Shown here: positions 5,700 through 26,096 of the stretch, one piece after another
Numbering within the stretch: the first letter of the stretch is position 1
Layout of the letters: every line of letters begins with the position of its first letter
Assembly: GCF_014202755.1 (NCBI RefSeq)
Contig: NZ_JACHHK010000005.1
Span: forward strand, 1-64,000
Length of the DNA: 64,000 nt
DNA from: Catenisphaera adipataccumulans
GTDB lineage: Bacteria > Bacillota_I > Bacilli_A > Erysipelotrichales > Erysipelotrichaceae
Direction: 5' to 3'
Translations under genes and position numbers: made by a program
Notes under the pieces: generated by a model
What the model was told of the DNA's origin: nothing
What the model saw: the letters and a program-made list of their open reading frames with translations, nothing else
Database searches by the model: none

Positions 5700-6674
5700 A
5701 TGGAAAATACTATTGTATTCGCATTATCATCTAGTAAGGAATTAGCCAAAGAGATTTGTGATGAGTTAGGGATGTCGCTCGGCGATATTGCGATCGAGCA
5801 TTTTGCCGACGGTGAGATCCTGGTAACACCGAAAGACTCGGTGCGCGGTAAACACGTTTACCTGGTCCAAAGCACGAACAAGCCGGTCAACGACAATCTA
5901 ATGGAACTGCTGATTGCGATCGACGCCTGCAAGCGTGCCAGTGCGCAGACCATCAACTGCATCATTCCGTATTTCGGATATGCACGTCAGGACCGCAAGG
6001 CGAAACCGCGTCAGCCGATCACAGCGAAACTGGTGGCGACCTTGCTGGAAAGCGCCGGAGCCAGCCGCGTCGCAACGGTCGACCTGCACGCGACACAGAT
6101 TCAAGGATTCTATGATATTCCGGCCGATGATATTGCGGCCAATTCGTTGATCGCCAATTACTTCCTGCACAAGGAAGCCAGTGATCTGGATAAGATCGTT
6201 GTTGTTTCGCCGGATCATGGCGGTGCCGTACGCGCGCGCCATTTGGCAGAAGCTTTACATGCACCGATCGCGATCATCGATAAACGCCGTCCGAAACCGA
6301 ACGTTGCTGTCGCAATGAATCTGATCGGTGATGTGAACGGTAAAGTTGCCATCATCATTGATGACATGGTAGATACAGCCGGTACGATCTCATCCGGTGT
6401 CAAGATGCTGAAAGAGCACGGTGCGACCAAAGTGTATGCAACCTGCTCACATGGTATCTTGTCCGGACCGGCGATCGATCGTCTGAAAGCAGCCGGATTG
6501 GAAGAATTTGTCTGCACGAATACGATCGATCAAACCGAGAATTTAAAGAAGTTCCCGGAAATGAAAGTTTTATCGGTAGCACCGCTGCTGGCTGGATTGA
6601 TCAGCTCGGTCGAAACCAATTCTTCTTTATCGGCAGCACTGAAGCATGCCGTACATGGCTACATTGCAGATTGA
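5700..6674 (+). CDS. prs: Ribose-phosphate pyrophosphokinase (PRPP synthetase)
   Basis: Makes PRPP from ribose-5-phosphate and ATP, feeding purine, pyrimidine, NAD, His and Trp synthesis. 324 residues, normal for class I enzymes. Visible motifs are the flexible-loop segment YFGYARQDRKAKPRQPIT, the metal/ATP site VVSPDHGGAVRAR and the PRPP-binding loop IIIDDMVDTAGT. AGAAAGGAC precedes the ATG. It is co-transcribed with glmU: no terminator lies between them, though a perfect 12-bp palindrome (GCTGAATTCAGC, 5641-5652) sits at the glmU stop. A strong terminator starts at its own stop codon. Confidence 0.95.
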   Translation: MENTIVFALSSSKELAKEICDELGMSLGDIAIEHFADGEILVTPKDSVRGKHVYLVQSTNKPVNDNLMELLIAIDACKRASAQTINCIIPYFGYARQDRKAKPRQPITAKLVATLLESAGASRVATVDLHATQIQGFYDIPADDIAANSLIANYFLHKEASDLDKIVVVSPDHGGAVRARHLAEALHAPIAIIDKRRPKPNVAVAMNLIGDVNGKVAIIIDDMVDTAGTISSGVKMLKEHGATKVYATCSHGILSGPAIDRLKAAGLEEFVCTNTIDQTENLKKFPEMKVLSVAPLLAGLISSVETNSSLSAALKHAVHGYIAD

Positions 6675-7735: not shown

Positions 7736-8489
7736 ATGCGAAGACATGCGCAAAGTTTTTTTCGATCTGTGCACACAAAGATGGGACTTCCATGTCTTTC
7801 AGTTCGGCAATTTTTTCTGCCACATACCGCACATACATCGGTTCGTTTTCATGACCACGATGCGGCACCGGTGTTAAATACGGCGAATCGGTCTCACTTA
7901 AGATCCGGTCGGCGGGGCAGGCTTTGACACAAGCCGGCCCTTGCCGGGAATTCTTGAACGTGATCGGTCCGGCAAAGGAGATCACTGAATCCATTTTCAA
8001 GGCTTCCTGCATGGTTTCCGGACTGCCTGAGAAGCAGTGAAAGATGATCCGTGTATGCGCGTGCTGCCGCAGCAGATCCATGCAGTCTTTCGTGGCATCG
8101 CGCATATGGATGGAAACCGGCAGGTGATACGTATTGGCGATTTCCAGCTGTTTGACGAACAATTGTTTCTGTGCGTCTTTGAATGACGTATCCCAATGGT
8201 AATCCAAACCGATCTCTCCCAGACAATCCAGGTGACCGGCCTGGATCTCATTTTCAAGATAGGTCAGATGTGCATCGGTCATTTCTTTGGCATCGCCGGG
8301 AAACCAGCCGAACGCCAGTTTGAAAAACGGATATTGTTCCTTGATGACTTTCGCCCGTTCGAATTCGGTTTGATTCGTGCTCATGATCATGCACGATGTG
8401 ACATGATGCGTTTGTATATTTTGAATGATTTCATCCACTCTTGCGTATAGACGATCGCAGGTGATGTGACAATGGCTGTCTGTGTACAT
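7734..8489 (-). CDS. tatD: TatD-family metal-dependent deoxyribonuclease
   Basis: TIM-barrel hydrolase of the TatD/YcfH family, 251 residues. Metal ligands are visible as HCH near the N terminus, E in CLGEIGLDYHW, H in VSIHMRD, H in IIFHCFSG and D in ETDSPYLTPVPHRG. Family members show 3'-5' DNase activity and are linked to DNA repair or turnover; the in vivo role here is unknown. An upstream TTG start two codons earlier was rejected because the AGGAGG element is 7 nt from this ATG but only 1 nt from the TTG. The gene is divergent from the DUF3284-like gene; their -10 elements overlap. Confidence 0.88.
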   Translation of the reverse strand: MYTDSHCHITCDRLYARVDEIIQNIQTHHVTSCMIMSTNQTEFERAKVIKEQYPFFKLAFGWFPGDAKEMTDAHLTYLENEIQAGHLDCLGEIGLDYHWDTSFKDAQKQLFVKQLEIANTYHLPVSIHMRDATKDCMDLLRQHAHTRIIFHCFSGSPETMQEALKMDSVISFAGPITFKNSRQGPACVKACPADRILSETDSPYLTPVPHRGHENEPMYVRYVAEKIAELKDMEVPSLCAQIEKNFAHVFA

Positions 8490-18103: not shown

Positions 18104-20152
18104 ATGAAAAAGAAAATCAGAGGCGTTTTTGCCTTTTTTTTGGCTGTCACGCTTGCCTGCAGCTGCAGGATGCTGATCCAGGCAGATCCTGTTGCAGCCG
18201 ATCCAGAAGCGGATACAGCCATTCTTCCATCGAATACAGATACGCAGACAACCGAGGCGGAAAATGATACAACCACAGCAGCATCTGATTTTACAGGCTC
18301 CCAACAGGAACCGACATCATCAGCGGAAAGAAATGCAGCGGTTTCAGTGCCGGCGGCAGGATCACCGGTTTTGCGCAGAACATCGGCCGGAAGCACAGAC
18401 ATTTCAGCCGCCGCAGTGGATGGCTTGTCAACCAATGTGAATGCGGTCAATGAAGGAGATTCTTTTACTGTTACAGTGAATTTCTCAGAAGATGATGCAA
18501 ACGGCAGTCAAAAAACAGATCTAGATATTGAAAGCGGCGATAAAATTTATATCACGTGGTCCGCGCCGCAGGGGATAACATTTAAAGGAACAACAGGCAG
18601 TAGTTCCAACACAATTGAATTATATGATGAAGGAATTCATCTTGGAACAGCTGTGGTAAGCAACGACCAAGTGGTCATCACCTTTGATGAAAGTGTGAAC
18701 GATCTGCAGCATGTGCATGGATCTGTCACGTTTACCATCCAGACCACAGGGGAGCTTGAATCGGCAAGTGAGAATACAGGAACGATCACAGCCGGCCGCA
18801 TAACGAAGTCGGTCACCATCAATTCAAATGGTTCTTCTCAGGAACAGCCTTTTGGATCAAAAGGCGGCGAATATGCTTCAGATGGACGGATCAAATGGAC
18901 CATCTGGATCAATAATACATTTAAGGAAAATTTGTCCGGAAATATTGTGATAACGGAGCCGCTGCCGGATACGGAAACCTGGAAAGATGACAGTTTTATA
19001 TCATATTCGCGCGGTGAAGATGATACTGTGAACAATTTAGATGATTTTAAACAAGAAGGCCGTAAGATTGAGATCGACGAAACGAACCATACGATCACGT
19101 TCACGATCCCGGCATCGGAACTGAATGGGGAATATGGTGAACTGCAGTTTTATACTTATACTTCCGCTTCAGCCGGTACAACGGTTGCCAACAGTATCAT
19201 AATGAAACATTCAGAAACCACTGATGATACAACTACGAATTATTCGGATAATTATATCGGCCGGGCTACCGTTCCTGACTCCGGCGGTTCGGTAAATGGA
19301 CAGCCGACGGGAAAGATCCAGATCAATAAAGTCGTCCGAGACACGACCGATCCGATCGCCGGCGTACATTTCCGCGTTTATCAAGTACGCAGTGAAGATG
19401 ATCATACACGGGTCGCTGGATGGTACAATGGGGCAGATCATGCAGAAATTGTTACGGATGCCGATGGCACGGCGATGCTGAAAGGGCTGAACGACGGATA
19501 TTATGAGATCGAAGAGGTGGCTGATGCGCTTCCTAACTGGATCGCGCGTTCCAGTTTGCCGAACAGTGTAGTTGTTGCGGTCAGCGGCACAGCCGGAACC
19601 CGTGTGAAAATTGAAAATCAAGTAAAGACCAGATCCATTACGGCCGTTAAGAACTGGGTGATGCCGGATGGAACAACAGCGGATACAGGCGATCATCCGG
19701 TCACATATTTTAAACTGTATCGAACGACGGATGGGGAAACCGATGAAGATGCTGGTCAGTCGATAAAAACAGTAAAGACCGTATCCGGAAAAAGCACGGC
19801 TTCAGTAACGTGGACCGATCTGCCAGCTTACGATAACAGCGGCAATGCCTATACGTACATTGTGAAAGAAGTGAATGCACAGGGCGAGGATGCAGTACCG
19901 GATGGTTACACAAAGGCCGAAGACGGCTTAAGCGTCACCAACCGATCCATTTCAAAAACCAGTACGAATTCCAGTTCATCGGATCATACAACGAGTTCCT
20001 CAGCAGCGACAAAAACGAAGGATCAGAAAAAAGTGAAAAAGGCGCAGACAGGGATGCAGACCCAGACCGGGCTGTATTGGATCCTTTGTCTGGGCGGTGC
20101 TGCTGCAATTGGAATTCTGGTCTATCTGAACAATAAGAAAAAACAGAAATGA
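18104..20152 (+). CDS. Sortase-anchored adhesin / pilin subunit with Cna-B domains
   Basis: 682-residue surface protein. Signal peptide about 1-28; a Thr/Ser-rich linker about 29-100; two tandem Ig-like adhesin domains of Cna/Sdr type about 105-240 and 245-390; a SpaA-like domain about 403-507 and a Cna-B domain about 508-615, each with the Lys ... Glu ... Asn pattern of intramolecular isopeptide bonds (for example KIQINK, YYEIEE, IENQV). A Ser-rich stalk follows. The C terminus is a sorting signal with no LPXTG: AQTG and TQTG motifs at about 647-656, one membrane helix and a Lys-rich tail. First gene of the pilus island; it resembles a Cpa-like tip adhesin in role. GGAGGG precedes the ATG. 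A terminator follows it. Confidence 0.82.
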   Translation: MKKKIRGVFAFFLAVTLACSCRMLIQADPVAADPEADTAILPSNTDTQTTEAENDTTTAASDFTGSQQEPTSSAERNAAVSVPAAGSPVLRRTSAGSTDISAAAVDGLSTNVNAVNEGDSFTVTVNFSEDDANGSQKTDLDIESGDKIYITWSAPQGITFKGTTGSSSNTIELYDEGIHLGTAVVSNDQVVITFDESVNDLQHVHGSVTFTIQTTGELESASENTGTITAGRITKSVTINSNGSSQEQPFGSKGGEYASDGRIKWTIWINNTFKENLSGNIVITEPLPDTETWKDDSFISYSRGEDDTVNNLDDFKQEGRKIEIDETNHTITFTIPASELNGEYGELQFYTYTSASAGTTVANSIIMKHSETTDDTTTNYSDNYIGRATVPDSGGSVNGQPTGKIQINKVVRDTTDPIAGVHFRVYQVRSEDDHTRVAGWYNGADHAEIVTDADGTAMLKGLNDGYYEIEEVADALPNWIARSSLPNSVVVAVSGTAGTRVKIENQVKTRSITAVKNWVMPDGTTADTGDHPVTYFKLYRTTDGETDEDAGQSIKTVKTVSGKSTASVTWTDLPAYDNSGNAYTYIVKEVNAQGEDAVPDGYTKAEDGLSVTNRSISKTSTNSSSSDHTTSSSAATKTKDQKKVKKAQTGMQTQTGLYWILCLGGAAAIGILVYLNNKKKQK

Positions 20153-20182: not shown

Positions 20183-20219
20183 AAAGGCAGGTGTTCTTTA
20201 TGAACATCTGCCTTTTTTT
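20183..20219 (+). terminator. Terminator between the two adhesin genes
   Basis: Fourteen-pair stem AAAGGCAGGTGTTC / GAACATCTGCCTTT (one wobble) with a TTTAT loop and a T run. It could separate, or partly attenuate, transcription into the rest of the island. Confidence 0.88.
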
Positions 20220-20247: not shown

Positions 20248-20268
20248 AGAAAGACTGGAGGGTCTTAT

Positions 20269-23200
20269 ATGAAGTGTATCAGGAAAGTTTTATTATTTTC
20301 ACTATGCATCAGTATGATCGGATTACCGATCCGGGCTGAGGAAACCCGAGACAAACAGCGGCAGACACTGCAGGCAGAAATCTATACCGATGCTTCTTAT
20401 ACGAAACGTATGCAGACAGCTGATTCGATCACCCTTCAGGGAGACTTCGAAAAAGGTACGCAAGTTTATGCCTATCCCACAGATGTTGATCTGCCGGGTG
20501 CGAAAACCAAGGCTGCCTACGATATTACGATCATGGATCCGGACAAGGAACCCGTTGAGCCGGACCAACCGGTCACGGTGCAGATCCATACAGAGAAGAA
20601 ACTGAATACAGATGTAACAAGTGTTTATCATGTGACCGGAAGCATTGATGAAATAACGGCACGATCGGCCGCGCATCAGGTGACGTTTTCGGCTGATTCC
20701 TTTTCTGTTTATGCGATCGGTGAAAAATATGCGAGATCGATGGTATTTCAGATGGACGGGGAATCATGGTATCACGAAATCTTGACTGAAGGGGAAATTC
20801 CGACACGACCTGCAACGCCTACAAAAGCGGATTGTCATTTTAAGGGATGGAAAAATACCAAAACCGGCCAGCTGATCGATGAAACATTTTGGAACACACC
20901 GACGGAAAATTTGACTCAGGATGAAGAAATTCTCTTTGAACCTGTTTTTGAAAAAATATTCCACGTTGCTTATAAAGGCGATGCGCAGGCCTCGGCCGGT
21001 ATTTTTCATACGCAGGAATATGCCGCCGGCGGTCAGTTAAATACAGCTGCCGTGCCGTTTACACCGGCAGAGGGCTTCAGTCTGGTTGGCTGGAGCACAA
21101 AGCCAAATGCACAAACACCGGATGTACAGGATGGTATGACCGTTACGCAGGATCTTGTCTTGTATCCGGTGCTGCAAAGCGGACAGTGGATCACATTTGA
21201 TGTCAACGGCGGGGAATCCATGAATCCTTGTTTTGTGCCAAGCGGGGAAAAACCGTCGCAATGTATGAAAGAAGATCCAAAACGGACCGGATATACGTTT
21301 GCGGGCTGGTATACAGATCCGTCTTTGCAGCATGCCTGGACAGCTGCTGATCAGCCGCTGACCAAGGCTTTGAAGCTGTACGCAAAATGGATACCAGATG
21401 ATGCGACCTATCAAATTATTTACATGAAACAGAATACATCCGGTACAGGGTATGACTACGATCGATCCGTTACGCGTACGGCAAAAACCGGAACCAAACT
21501 GACGGTCGCTGCCGGCGATCCGTATGTGCTGAAGGAAGACGGCAAGACAGTCTGCTCACTGAATCAGACAAAAACGGCGTATTTTCATTATGTACCGATC
21601 TCAGTGGGTTCTCAGTCTGTCAAAGGAGATGGAACGACCGTTGTCTATGTTTATTTAGACCGCAATGTCTATCACATTACGTTTCATCTGGAGTCCATGG
21701 CTATCGTGAAGAACGGGATCACATACACGTCTGCTTCGCCGTATACGTTGACTGCCCGCTACGGTGAAGAGATCAAAGATCGCTGGCCGGCTGGGGATGA
21801 CATTAAAAATTTAGACGGCACCAATACCAAATGGGTCGGCTGGAATAATGTGAACCAAAAATCATATTACAGTTCCGAACGACGCTGCACGCTGGAATCG
21901 GATATGATTCCTAACGATCTGGCCAATCAAAACGATGCCCGTTTTACCGTGGAGGGACGGACGAGCACGACCTCATACGATGTGAATATCACCTATATGG
22001 AGGGGACAAAAGAAGCTCCGATCGGTGTGATCAATCAATTCGTTGGCAAGTCTAGATATAAAGGCGGATATTGGCGCCCAAACGAACTCGCGGGCTTTAC
22101 GATCAACGGCGGAAGTAACTCGCAGAAGACCTATGTGAAGGCCGGCGAATCGGTGACGTTCTATTTTACCCGCAATATCTACACGGTTGATTGTTACAAC
22201 GCCGCCGGGACCAAGGTAGAACGATCGGTTCAAGTGCCATATGACAAATTGGTGAAGAACTATCTTCCGAGCAATCTGAAAGCACCGAACAAAGGGTATC
22301 AATTCGGCGGATGGTATACCACACCGACGTTTGAAGAGGCTTCTCGCTGGAATGACAATAACAAGATGCCGGCTGCGAACATCCGTTTATATCCGAAGTG
22401 GATCGCACCGGTCCATACAGTGCAGTTTGATTTGAACGGCGGACATGCTCCGGATGATCAAGCAGACTATACGGCTCAGTTGGTCGTTGATAAGCAGCAA
22501 GCCGTCCGTCCGGCAGATCCGGTGCGTGAGGACAGCCGCTTTATCGGCTGGTATCAGGAGAATGGTTCACCGTTTCATTTCTCGGCCCCGATCACCGCTT
22601 CGATCACGCTGCAGGCAAAATGGATCCCGCTGCACAGCACCCATGTGCACTACGACAGCAATGGTGGTTCAAAAGCGGGCTGGACATCGGCGAAAGCGTA
22701 TACGGTCGGTGCCCAGGCAGAGGCAGAAGAAATGCGTTCGGACTGTCACCCGCCGGAAGGAAAAAATCGTTTCTTGTATTGGAATACAAAAAAAGATGGA
22801 TCCGGCGCATCCTATTATGCGCATGATTTATTTACCGTTGATCAAGAAGATATGACGTTGTATGCGATTTGGGCGGATCAACGTCATGCGCAGCTGACCT
22901 TTGATGCCAACGGCGGAACCTATCCGGATCAGAAAGCAACACGTACCGTACAGTTCAGCGATGCCGACGGGCATACCGGATCGATCCCGAATGATGAATT
23001 TACCATTACATCGACATATGTACCGACCCGTCCGGGTTATCGATTCATTGGCTGGACCAAGATTCGTTCCGGAGACGGGACGGAGTATCGTGTAGGGGAT
23101 AAAGTACGTGTCTCCGGCGATGCGGTGCTCTATGCACAGTGGCAGAAGCTGCATACATTGACGATCGTGAATCAAGTTGAAGGTACTTATGACGATGATT

Positions 23201-23571
23201 CATTGTTTCATTTTGATGTGACATTGACCGATGCGCAGGGCAAACCTTTATCCGGCACATGGCAGGGCAAAACAGCCGATAAAAATGGAACGGTTTCATT
23301 CTCATTAAAAAAGGATCAGTCTTTCTGCTTCGATGAACTGCCGGATCAGGCAGACTATCGTATCGAAGAAACAGGGCCGCAAGGCTATCAAACAACGGTC
23401 GAAGGAGATCCGGAAGCCGGTACGCTGAAAGAAAAAGATGATTTTAAAGTTATTTATCGTCATCGTTTCCAGGTCGTTGAAACCGGGATCCGAAAGAATA
23501 TACATGGTTTATTGATGTGTGTCGGTCTGCTTTTATGCGGGCTTTGGTACCGTAGGAAGTTCATCCGATGA
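20269..23571 (+). CDS. Large InlB-repeat surface adhesin with pilin-type C-terminal domain
   Basis: 1100 residues from this start. Signal peptide about 1-23; an N-terminal region about 30-155; then about seven repeats of the Listeria-Bacteroides / InlB B type (pattern FDxNGG ... GYxFxGWY ... LYAKW), covering roughly 157-930; then a domain starting VEGTYDDDSLFHFDVTL that is similar to the second domain of the FctA-like pilin downstream. The C terminus has VETG, a membrane helix and WYRRKFIR, a non-LPXTG sorting signal. The start at 20191 was rejected: GGAGGG is 6 nt before this ATG and a signal peptide begins here. It overlaps the SipA-like gene by 4 bp. Likely a pilus-borne or cell-wall adhesin; the ligand is unknown. 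Confidence 0.83.
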   Translation: MKCIRKVLLFSLCISMIGLPIRAEETRDKQRQTLQAEIYTDASYTKRMQTADSITLQGDFEKGTQVYAYPTDVDLPGAKTKAAYDITIMDPDKEPVEPDQPVTVQIHTEKKLNTDVTSVYHVTGSIDEITARSAAHQVTFSADSFSVYAIGEKYARSMVFQMDGESWYHEILTEGEIPTRPATPTKADCHFKGWKNTKTGQLIDETFWNTPTENLTQDEEILFEPVFEKIFHVAYKGDAQASAGIFHTQEYAAGGQLNTAAVPFTPAEGFSLVGWSTKPNAQTPDVQDGMTVTQDLVLYPVLQSGQWITFDVNGGESMNPCFVPSGEKPSQCMKEDPKRTGYTFAGWYTDPSLQHAWTAADQPLTKALKLYAKWIPDDATYQIIYMKQNTSGTGYDYDRSVTRTAKTGTKLTVAAGDPYVLKEDGKTVCSLNQTKTAYFHYVPISVGSQSVKGDGTTVVYVYLDRNVYHITFHLESMAIVKNGITYTSASPYTLTARYGEEIKDRWPAGDDIKNLDGTNTKWVGWNNVNQKSYYSSERRCTLESDMIPNDLANQNDARFTVEGRTSTTSYDVNITYMEGTKEAPIGVINQFVGKSRYKGGYWRPNELAGFTINGGSNSQKTYVKAGESVTFYFTRNIYTVDCYNAAGTKVERSVQVPYDKLVKNYLPSNLKAPNKGYQFGGWYTTPTFEEASRWNDNNKMPAANIRLYPKWIAPVHTVQFDLNGGHAPDDQADYTAQLVVDKQQAVRPADPVREDSRFIGWYQENGSPFHFSAPITASITLQAKWIPLHSTHVHYDSNGGSKAGWTSAKAYTVGAQAEAEEMRSDCHPPEGKNRFLYWNTKKDGSGASYYAHDLFTVDQEDMTLYAIWADQRHAQLTFDANGGTYPDQKATRTVQFSDADGHTGSIPNDEFTITSTYVPTRPGYRFIGWTKIRSGDGTEYRVGDKVRVSGDAVLYAQWQKLHTLTIVNQVEGTYDDDSLFHFDVTLTDAQGKPLSGTWQGKTADKNGTVSFSLKKDQSFCFDELPDQADYRIEETGPQGYQTTVEGDPEAGTLKEKDDFKVIYRHRFQVVETGIRKNIHGLLMCVGLLLCGLWYRRKFIR

Positions 23572-24089
23572 ATGATATGAAATCGACGCCCGGACCGCCT
23601 TCTTTAAAACAGGCGTGGAAAGCGTTCGGTCTAAAATGCTTGTTTACGGCGTTGTTCCTGGTGCTTTTGACTTCAGTCTTTTTCGGGGTCCAGCAGGCGG
23701 ATGACGGGCATATGGCACCCGCTGTAAAAGCTGGTGATCTGATATTTTTTGATCGGCTTGATCATAGCTATGTGAGCGGGGATCTGGTCATGGTCAATCA
23801 GAAACAGGGAATGGAAGCACGCCGAGTCGTCGCGGCCGCAGGAGATACGGTCGATCTGACGGAAGAAGGTCTGGTGATCAACGGCTATCTGCAGCAGGAA
23901 GATGAAATCTATACAGAAACGCTTCCATTCCAGGACGGGATCCGCTTTCCTATCAAGGTCCCGAAAGGAAAGATCTTTGTATTGGCGGATGATCGGACCC
24001 ATGCATCGGACAGCCGTTTGTACGGCTGCGTATCGCTGCGGTCCGTGCAGGGAAAAGTGATCACGATCATTCGCAGAAGAAATTTTTAG
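23568..24089 (+). CDS. SipA-like signal peptidase homologue, catalytic Ser and Lys replaced
   Basis: 173 residues with the signal peptidase I layout: cytosolic tail, one membrane helix (about 24-41), then the extracytoplasmic domain. The usual catalytic box SMxPTL is here GHMAPAV, so Ser becomes His48. The general-base box (KRVxGxPGD) is RRVVAAAGD, so Lys becomes Arg85. The structural box ADDRTHASDSR is kept. Streptococcus pyogenes SipA, encoded in the FCT pilus locus, likewise lacks both catalytic residues and helps pilus assembly. The position here, directly before an FctA-like pilin and a class B sortase, supports the same chaperone-like role. It overlaps the upstream adhesin by 4 bp (ATGA). 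Inactivity is inferred from the motif changes. Confidence 0.85.
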   Translation: MNDMKSTPGPPSLKQAWKAFGLKCLFTALFLVLLTSVFFGVQQADDGHMAPAVKAGDLIFFDRLDHSYVSGDLVMVNQKQGMEARRVVAAAGDTVDLTEEGLVINGYLQQEDEIYTETLPFQDGIRFPIKVPKGKIFVLADDRTHASDSRLYGCVSLRSVQGKVITIIRRRNF

Positions 24090-24104: not shown

Positions 24105-25232
24105 ATGAAAAATAGAATCGTGCATTCGATCATATCGATCTTGACTGCTTTTGTTTTCCTGATCGATCCGGTTTTTGCCGCCGAAGATCCGTCGACATAT
24201 CCTGTGGCATCGGACGGTGAAAAAACGACGGCTCCGTTTGTGACCAAAGAATTGATCGGAAACAAGGGCGTTTCCTTGACGCATACATTTACGTTTACCT
24301 TTACACCGGCCGGTACGACAACGGTAGATGCCGGCGATCATCCAGCAATCGCGGATGTGACCATTGATATCACGAAAAAAGATTCGGAAACTTCCGCTGT
24401 CTCATCGGCCGATGTCACTTTGCCAAGTCAGTTTTCCAAACCGGGTGTCTATGCGTATAAGGTGGCTGAAAAAGAAGATGCTGGTTTCAACAGTCAATAT
24501 GAAACCAACGGAAAGATCGAGTTTGATCAAGAAACTTATACCATGTTGATTTATGTCGACAGTGATCTGCAGATCACTACAGTAACAGCTGTCAAAGATT
24601 CGACAAAACAGAAAACATCCTGGGATACAGGAAAAGGAATGAAGTTTGAAAATAAGATCATCAAAAACGCCAATCCGGATCCAGGCAATCCAGATCCGGA
24701 CAATCCGTCCAGCGACCGTACAGCCGATGTGATCATCAAAAAACAAGTTGAAGGTACTTACGGCGACCGAAACAAAGCGTTTAACTTTACGGTCACGTTC
24801 AGTACAGACGGCACCGTGGCACTGCCGAAGGACTGGAGCTTATCTTCGATCACCGGCAGCACCGGCAGCACAAAACTGACCAATAAGAACGGTACATTCA
24901 CATTTACGCTGAAACATGGCCAGCAGGCTGAATTTTCCAACGTACCGGCCGGGGTCACCTATACGGTCAAGGAAGATGGCGCCAAGGGATATACAGCCGT
25001 CTATAAAGATGCCAAGATCACGGATGCGTTTACCGACACCAAAGGCCAGGGAGTCACTGCTTCCGGCTGTCTGATCCATGAAAACGGCGGCGCCAACGGC
25101 CAGATGACCAACACATATGAAAATATCACACCAACGGGCATCGTCACGAAAAACGCATCGTTCCTGTTTATGATCCTGGCGGCGGCAGCAGCGGCCATCG
25201 TTTCCATTCGTTCGAAACGCGAACAGGATTAA
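24105..25232 (+). CDS. FctA-like major pilin backbone
   Basis: 375 residues. Signal peptide about 1-26; an FctA/T-antigen-type domain about 40-186 with candidate isopeptide residues K48 (in FVTKEL), E122 (in KVAEKE) and N183 (in FENKI); a Pro/Asp-rich hinge at 189-204; a second beta domain about 207-340 with K212 or K213, E290 and N336. The C terminus carries the sorting motif TPTG (about 342-345), a membrane helix and the tail RSKREQD. Self-crosslinked two-domain backbone pilins of this type are polymerised by the pilus sortase. AGAAGGAT precedes the ATG. It lies between the SipA-like gene and the class B sortase gene, the FCT order. Confidence 0.85.
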   Translation: MKNRIVHSIISILTAFVFLIDPVFAAEDPSTYPVASDGEKTTAPFVTKELIGNKGVSLTHTFTFTFTPAGTTTVDAGDHPAIADVTIDITKKDSETSAVSSADVTLPSQFSKPGVYAYKVAEKEDAGFNSQYETNGKIEFDQETYTMLIYVDSDLQITTVTAVKDSTKQKTSWDTGKGMKFENKIIKNANPDPGNPDPDNPSSDRTADVIIKKQVEGTYGDRNKAFNFTVTFSTDGTVALPKDWSLSSITGSTGSTKLTNKNGTFTFTLKHGQQAEFSNVPAGVTYTVKEDGAKGYTAVYKDAKITDAFTDTKGQGVTASGCLIHENGGANGQMTNTYENITPTGIVTKNASFLFMILAAAAAAIVSIRSKREQD

Positions 25233-25235
25233 TGT

Positions 25236-26096
25236 ATGAAACATCCGACACATAGGCCGGTCTCCCTGGCCTGGTCGGTGCTTCGCCTGGGTGAGGTGTG
25301 TTTGGATGGTTTTATTTTTATCTTTTTCTTTTTGGTCGGGCTTTATGGTCTGTACGGATTGATCGACAATCAACGGATCCATGCGCAGGCATCGCCGCAG
25401 ATTTATGCGACCTACAAACCGACGCAGGATCATTCGATGAGTTTTGAAAAGCTGCAGAAAAAGAATCCGGATGTGATTGCCTGGCTGCAGATTTATGGGA
25501 CCGGGATCGATTATCCGCTGGTGCAGGGAAAGGATGATGAAGAATATTTAAATAAGGCACCGGATGGATCGGATTGTCTTTCCGGCAGTCTGTTCGTGCA
25601 TTGTGCCAATGCGCCGGATTTTTCCGATTTTAATACGATCGTATATGGCCACCATATGGAAGACCATAAAATGTTCGGGGATATTGATTTGTTTGTACAG
25701 CCAAAGTTCTTTCAAGCGCATCGTTACGGAAACCTATACTACGGCGGTCAGAATCATGGCGTCGAAATCATCGCCTGTCTTATCACCGATGCCTATGATT
25801 CATCGATTTATCGTGTTGTTTCTGATGATGCCGATGGATACATGAAACGAATCAAGGAATGTGCGGTCTGTCAAAGAAAAATAAAAAGCACGGATCATTT
25901 GATCGTGCTTTCGACTTGTGCAGACGGACAAACAAATCAGCGCAGACTGCTGGTTGCTCGTATTACCGACCAGACCTATAAGAACCATTTCCGATCAAAG
26001 ACGCCAAGTCTGGATATTCCTGCTCGGCTGCCGTATTGGCCGATCATCGGTTTGGCAGCCGTAGGGATGATATGGTACAAAAAAAGCGGGCATTAA
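25236..26096 (+). CDS. Class B sortase (pilus polymerase)
   Basis: Membrane-anchored cysteine transpeptidase, 286 residues. One N-terminal membrane helix (about 24-43), then the catalytic domain with H139 in IVYGHHM, C228 in LSTCAD and R237 in QRRLLVARI. A second hydrophobic stretch ends the protein (about 266-281) followed by KKSGH, a C-terminal anchor not typical of plain SrtB. It starts 3 bp after the pilin stop. As the only sortase of the island it should recognise the shared xTG sorting motifs and link pilin subunits. Iron-acquisition SrtB function is unlikely in this context. Confidence 0.9.
   Translation: MKHPTHRPVSLAWSVLRLGEVCLDGFIFIFFFLVGLYGLYGLIDNQRIHAQASPQIYATYKPTQDHSMSFEKLQKKNPDVIAWLQIYGTGIDYPLVQGKDDEEYLNKAPDGSDCLSGSLFVHCANAPDFSDFNTIVYGHHMEDHKMFGDIDLFVQPKFFQAHRYGNLYYGGQNHGVEIIACLITDAYDSSIYRVVSDDADGYMKRIKECAVCQRKIKSTDHLIVLSTCADGQTNQRRLLVARITDQTYKNHFRSKTPSLDIPARLPYWPIIGLAAVGMIWYKKSGH

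Follow-up and report, generated by a model that had tools for sequence, protein, structure and literature searches.

The closest described relative of the gene considered here is SipA (or LepA) of the FCT-2, -3 and -4 pili of Streptococcus pyogenes (PDB 4n31, 4k8w), a type I signal peptidase homologue with Asp48 and Gly85 at the positions of the catalytic Ser-Lys dyad (PMC4049620). Deletion of sipA abolishes pilin polymerisation, pre-FctA is not cleaved, and the D61A, D61S and D61A/K98A mutations are without effect, with either Ala or Ser working at the Ser position (PMC4049620). Polymerisation cannot proceed without SipA, which is regarded as probably assisting the class B sortase as a scaffold or chaperone (PMC4049620; PMC7900414; PMC3019223); according to a review, why some pili pair a class B sortase with SipA is not clear (PMC7900414). 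SipF of the Streptococcus suis srtF pilus cluster is also a signal peptidase homologue that shares its locus with pilins and a pilus sortase, but it keeps Ser and Lys, its partner is a class C sortase, and polymerisation survives its deletion (PMC2797073). Here we describe a sipA-like gene at positions 23568-24089 of a 64,000-nucleotide stretch, hereafter the window, from Catenisphaera adipataccumulans (contig NZ_JACHHK010000005.1, positions 1 to 64,000).

The encoded protein is a member of the SipA family, not a new kind of protein. In full, our reading, to which we give a probability of roughly 0.83, is that it is a membrane-anchored signal peptidase fold that does not cleave, is needed by the class B sortase for polymerisation of an FctA-type pilin, and descends from a lineage that lost the dyad once. 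The predicted fold, the loss of the dyad and its supporting residues, the operon, membership of the SipA clade and the single origin of that clade were obtained directly. Essentiality and the absence of peptidase activity would carry over from S. pyogenes SipA by clade, fold and operon. The gene and the positions that matter most are:

23568..24089, forward strand: sipA-like gene, encoding a 173-aa signal peptidase I homologue with no Ser-Lys dyad
23604..23681, forward strand: N-terminal membrane helix, residues 13-38 (secondary structure of the AlphaFold model)
23709..23711, forward strand: His48 codon (CAT), catalytic Ser position (profile alignments and structure superposition)
23820..23822, forward strand: Arg85 codon (CGC), catalytic Lys position (profile alignments and structure superposition)
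23985..24005, forward strand: Ala140 to Ala146, the two alanines replacing the Lys-supporting Gly and Ser of active enzymes (alignment; roles from PMC4049620)

The open reading frame is intact over 173 codons, and its ATG overlaps the stop codon of the upstream pilin gene (ATGA). Its product matches Peptidase_S26 (PF10502, 1.6e-18) and scores 89.9 bits against the sigpep_I_bact 'signal peptidase I' model (TIGR02227, cut-off 47). The Peptidase S26 fold and a TIGR02227 score above the cut-off are shared with housekeeping signal peptidases of the LepB/SpsB type; unlike these, however, the window protein has no Ser-Lys dyad, and the automatic name 'signal peptidase I' would therefore be misleading. 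The AlphaFold model (mean predicted local distance difference test score, pLDDT, of 89.5 from 45 sequences) predicts the signal peptidase I fold with a single N-terminal membrane helix. Two hallmarks of active type I signal peptidases (S26A) are absent. Both dyad residues are replaced, Ser by His48 and Lys by Arg85, as profile alignments and the register with SipA 4n31 confirmed for what the preliminary description had read from the sequence. The Lys-supporting residues of box E are also gone, with Ala140 in place of Gly and Ala146 in place of Ser (97% Gly and 93% Ser among Ser-Lys homologues). That description had called the ADDR...SDSR box intact, which is true of D141, R143, D148, S149 and R150, all retained, but not of the two supports. 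It had also named another Ser and Lys in register as a finding that would overturn the dyad loss; we looked for such residues and found none, and the loss stands. There is no Ser within one residue of position 48 and no Lys within two of position 85, which together with the in-register superposition rules out a misaligned dyad. An enzyme of the SipW/ER type, with a Ser-His dyad, was likewise ruled out, since the His of the window protein occupies the Ser position and an Arg the Lys position.

By both sequence (2.5e-23) and structure, the best match among solved structures is S. pyogenes SipA 4n31. The model of the window protein superimposes on it with a Z of 21.5 and a root-mean-square deviation of 1.6 over 134 residues. 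Residues 37..173 fall on residues 37..173, and as the dyad positions of SipA are Asp48 and Gly85, the numbering used earlier is right. The two proteins share fold, residue numbering, missing dyad, clade and operon order with an FctA-type pilin and class B sortase. They differ at the dyad positions, Asp48/Gly85 against His48/Arg85, bearing out the preliminary description, which gave SipA other substitutions. They also differ at the supporting positions, where SipA has Asn and Arg instead of Ala140 and Ala146, and identity is 37%. The window host, moreover, belongs to the Erysipelotrichaceae, and unlike in the S. pyogenes system no FctB-like basal pilin gene lies directly downstream of the window sortase.

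Relatives were gathered by whole-genome searches of the family, order and class of the host and of the order of Enterococcus raffinosus, and by one scan of named genome contigs, seeded by six close members, which found relatives in Erysipelotrichaceae, Lachnospiraceae, Oscillospiraceae, Enterococcus and others. Sampling was seeded by signal peptidase homology, and 'inactive' refers throughout to what the residues imply. In a first set of 184 homologues, the dyad was missing in 90 of the 91 adjoining an FctA-like pilin or class B sortase (two of these 90, L016 and L188, were later placed outside the SipA clade) and present in 79 of the 93 lacking such a neighbour. The final set holds 95 SipA-clade proteins from many Bacillota. 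None has a Ser-Lys pair, and 81 are encoded within 2.2 kb (median 1.2 kb) of a class B sortase on the same strand; for most of the remaining 14 the locus is not long enough to reveal one. A comparison from the sortase side gave the same association: each of the 35 best order-level matches of the window sortase has a SipA-like gene within 3 kb, and the next best does not. The suggestion that FctA-type (class B sortase) systems generally include a dyad-less signal peptidase homologue is upheld by these counts.

The dyad positions themselves vary widely within the clade. Position 48 is Ser in 31 members, Asp in 26, Asn in 9, Gly in 8 and other residues in the rest, and position 85 is Gly in 39, Arg in 33, Ser and Ala in 7 each, Lys in 1 and otherwise something else; Lys is missing in 94 of 95 members and Ser in two thirds. 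Ranked by conservation among 137 positions, position 48 comes 96th and position 85 comes 56th, in agreement with the published SipA point mutants that still work (PMC4049620). D141, R143, D148, S149 and R150 are kept in 100% of the clade, and G40, D57, L58, P128, R169 and R170 are conserved there and less so in active enzymes.

Trees were built without positions 48, 85, 140 and 146. A careful mixture-model tree of 101 rows, from which the longest rows had been removed, unites all SipA-like proteins, that of S. pyogenes included, in a single clade (support 99/98) that branches from within the Ser-Lys enzymes; a quick tree of 166 rows agrees. Persistence of the clade in the mixture-model tree without the longest rows argues against a long-branch artefact. 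When the dyad state is mapped onto the 101-row tree, as the preliminary description had proposed, six changes are needed in total and one of them accounts for the SipA clade (two if the protein L096:2311-2862 lies inside). With one clade and a single change, the diversity of substitutions is best explained by drift that followed one loss, and an ancient loss followed by drift is probably the simplest history these sequences allow. Repeated inactivation within FctA-type systems, as had been suggested, is not supported by the same tree. The idea of more than one inactivation finds its support elsewhere, across pilus types, in a separate class C lineage described below.

In the mechanism we propose, SipA would serve as a scaffold on the outer side of the membrane, where it may present the pilin to the class B sortase in a usable pose, gripping it by the peptide cleft, which is retained, or by some other surface. 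Loss of the dyad would have occurred a single time, at the root of the SipA lineage; the two positions, no longer of consequence, would then have drifted.

Several observations weigh against this reading. In vitro, S. pyogenes SipA bound neither FctA, sortase nor pilin peptides, and its cleft-blocking V99R mutant is still functional (PMC4049620), so the protein may work through a surface other than the cleft. No functional tests of the window protein, or of SipA members outside streptococci, were found. The Ser-Lys protein L096:2311-2862 forms a long basal branch of the SipA clade, and its placement outside the clade is not rejected by the approximately unbiased (AU) test (p 0.43). Lys persists in one member, a paralogue of the window protein in the same genome, and Ser in one third, so the two losses may have come in either order and some may have been parallel inside the clade.

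Several independent losses within FctA/class B systems, each with its own substitutions, would be a direct explanation for the 28 residue pairs seen at the two dyad positions (among them H/R, M/K, T/R, S/R, D/G and Y/G). This history could also accommodate the window paralogue, which keeps Lys and both supporting residues, and the basal Ser-Lys homologue, which shares its Lacrimispora operon with an S/R copy. The branching order inside the clade is poorly resolved, and this, with the Lys of the paralogue, leaves room for parallel loss of Lys. We nevertheless regard repeated loss as unlikely: the whole clade is inactive, one branch suffices to explain it, and the other changes among the six fall elsewhere. 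We consider it about equally improbable that the protein is a decoy or modulator that binds pilin signal peptides without cutting them, so that the housekeeping enzyme frees the pilins from the membrane only after the sortase has acted. Such a role would suit the retained signal peptidase fold, the peptide cleft kept in S. pyogenes SipA (PMC4049620), the presence of Ser-Lys signal peptidase-like genes in the host genome and the signal peptides of the operon pilins, which, read by eye, end in ordinary A-X-A-like sites. However, no binding of S. pyogenes SipA to pilin signal peptides was seen, and the V99R mutation, which blocks the cleft, was without effect (PMC4049620).

A cryptic enzyme that relies on His48 or other residues is very improbable, since position 48 varies among S, D, N, G, A, T, Y, M, R, E and H in the clade and S. 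pyogenes SipA mutants at the Ser position function (PMC4049620); the Ser-His dyad of SipW-type enzymes, besides, has its His at the Lys position and not at the Ser position. The loss of both catalytic residues and their supports would also be expected of a decaying relic. Yet the frame is intact and coupled to the neighbouring genes, the fold is predicted with confidence, non-catalytic residues are strongly conserved across Bacillota and the host genome holds two copies, leaving decay the least probable reading of all.

Signal peptidases of class C sortase pilus operons form a clade of their own (37 rows, 100/100), apart from SipA in the trees. The Ser-Lys pair, as in S. suis SipF (PMC2797073), is present in 17 of the 23 with a class C sortase in reach. 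One lineage (support 100/97) reads A/R, D/R or S/R and comes from five genomes of three genera in a second family of the order:

L268 7766-8320, L269 7623-8117, L270 7954-8496, L181 2485-3075 and L271 8488-9030: inactive class C lineage, A/R, D/R or S/R

In four of the five members the gene immediately precedes that of a class C sortase (281 bits, cut-off 160), and in three of those four a small pilin and a SpaH-type backbone pilin are visible upstream. The lineage reads AFYYNNKILVRR where intact relatives read AFYYNNKILVKR; it still carries the Lys-supporting Gly and mostly the Ser too. Its mean identity to the Ser-Lys enzymes of class C operons is 34-39%, and to SipA 23-26%. Joining it to SipA costs a log-likelihood difference of 37 and is only narrowly rejected (AU p 0.049); bootstrap values for separate SipA and class C clades are 99-100, from a bootstrap that had not fully settled. 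A separate lineage here implies that signal peptidases of pilus operons lost the dyad on at least two occasions, the second of them outside FctA/class B systems, and we hold repeated inactivation across pilus types, as judged from these sequences, with moderate certainty. More broadly, we are inclined to think, with some reserve, that signal peptidases encoded in pilus operons lose catalysis as a recurring step while sortase-built pili evolve, once at the SipA/class B root and again, independently, within class C, the peptidase fold being taken up each time as a sortase partner that does not cut. A class C pilus operon in the host family (L261 7898-8548) also has a signal peptidase homologue, S/A at the dyad positions, just before its sortase; that it represents a third, separate class C loss was not shown (AU p 0.29).

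The sipA-like gene stands between an ancillary pilin and the FctA-type pilin in an operon ordered adhesin, ancillary pilin, sipA, fctA, class B sortase, whose other members are:

18104..20152, forward strand: 682-aa surface protein with SpaA and Cna_B domains, resembling collagen-binding adhesins; probable adhesin or ancillary pilin
20266..23571, forward strand: ancillary pilin or adhesin of about 1100 aa, with InlB-type repeats and a DUF7601 pilin domain (domain matches)
24105..25232, forward strand: 375-aa FctA-like backbone pilin (DUF7601) with a C-terminal ITPTG sorting motif
25236..26096, forward strand: class B sortase of 286 aa, presumed pilin polymerase (TIGR03064, 164.8 bits, cut-off 153.75)

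The start codon of the ancillary pilin gene is unsettled, either GTG at 20191 or ATG at 20266. The host genome has a second pilus locus with the same gene order (contig C4), whose signal peptidase paralogue is 44-48% identical to the window protein, has Met/Lys at the dyad positions and keeps the Lys-supporting Gly and Ser. Two further signal peptidase-like genes in the genome are both Ser-Lys. At the second locus (C4:72000-90000, L189), an in-frame stop at 7978-7980 splits the InlB-repeat adhesin or pilin gene into parts of 889 aa and 296 aa, reflecting either a broken adhesin or a sequencing error.

Some loci from the survey depart from the common arrangement. Two SipA-clade proteins (L178 937-1662 and L179 2955-3656) are R/S, carry a long Pro/Glu-rich N-terminal extension and adjoin a DegV-like gene; neither a sortase nor a pilin was seen beside them at these loci, and they are possibly SipA proteins with a new job. 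At ruminococcal-type loci (L115, L116, L118, L120, L121, L124, L134 and L136) SipA is followed directly by an unusually long class B sortase (345-834 aa). The pilus locus of Lacrimispora celerecrescens (L096) has two signal peptidases flanking a 995-aa pilin, the first gene (2311-2862) Ser-Lys and the other (5887-6435) a SipA with S/R. A SipA locus (L112 4799-5410) occurs in a metagenome bin labelled Propionibacteriaceae (Actinomycetota), pointing to mis-binning or transfer. Two candidates were set aside: L267:15194-15691, listed as a class B-linked 'Ser-His' homologue, is a SipW-type enzyme beside other surface genes and not SipA, and L016/L267:17256 (D/R) adjoins an MscS-like gene and does not belong to a pilus operon. 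The region L267 15194-16419 comprises this SipW-type Ser-His signal peptidase and, directly after it, a sortase-like gene, with several secreted proteins upstream.

What is new here is that the SipA family, judging from its sequences, is widespread, uniformly without the Ser-Lys dyad and probably inactivated once. SipA-like genes pass the automatic 'signal peptidase I' model despite missing the known catalytic residues. The survey yields a testable rule, in which class B pilus operons go with one dyad-less signal peptidase clade and class C operons with a different, mostly intact one. The class C loss provides a pilus pseudo-peptidase that arose independently of SipA, the second such example. 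The dyad positions drift over the whole SipA family; the conserved D57, P128 and R169 are better candidates for its working surface.
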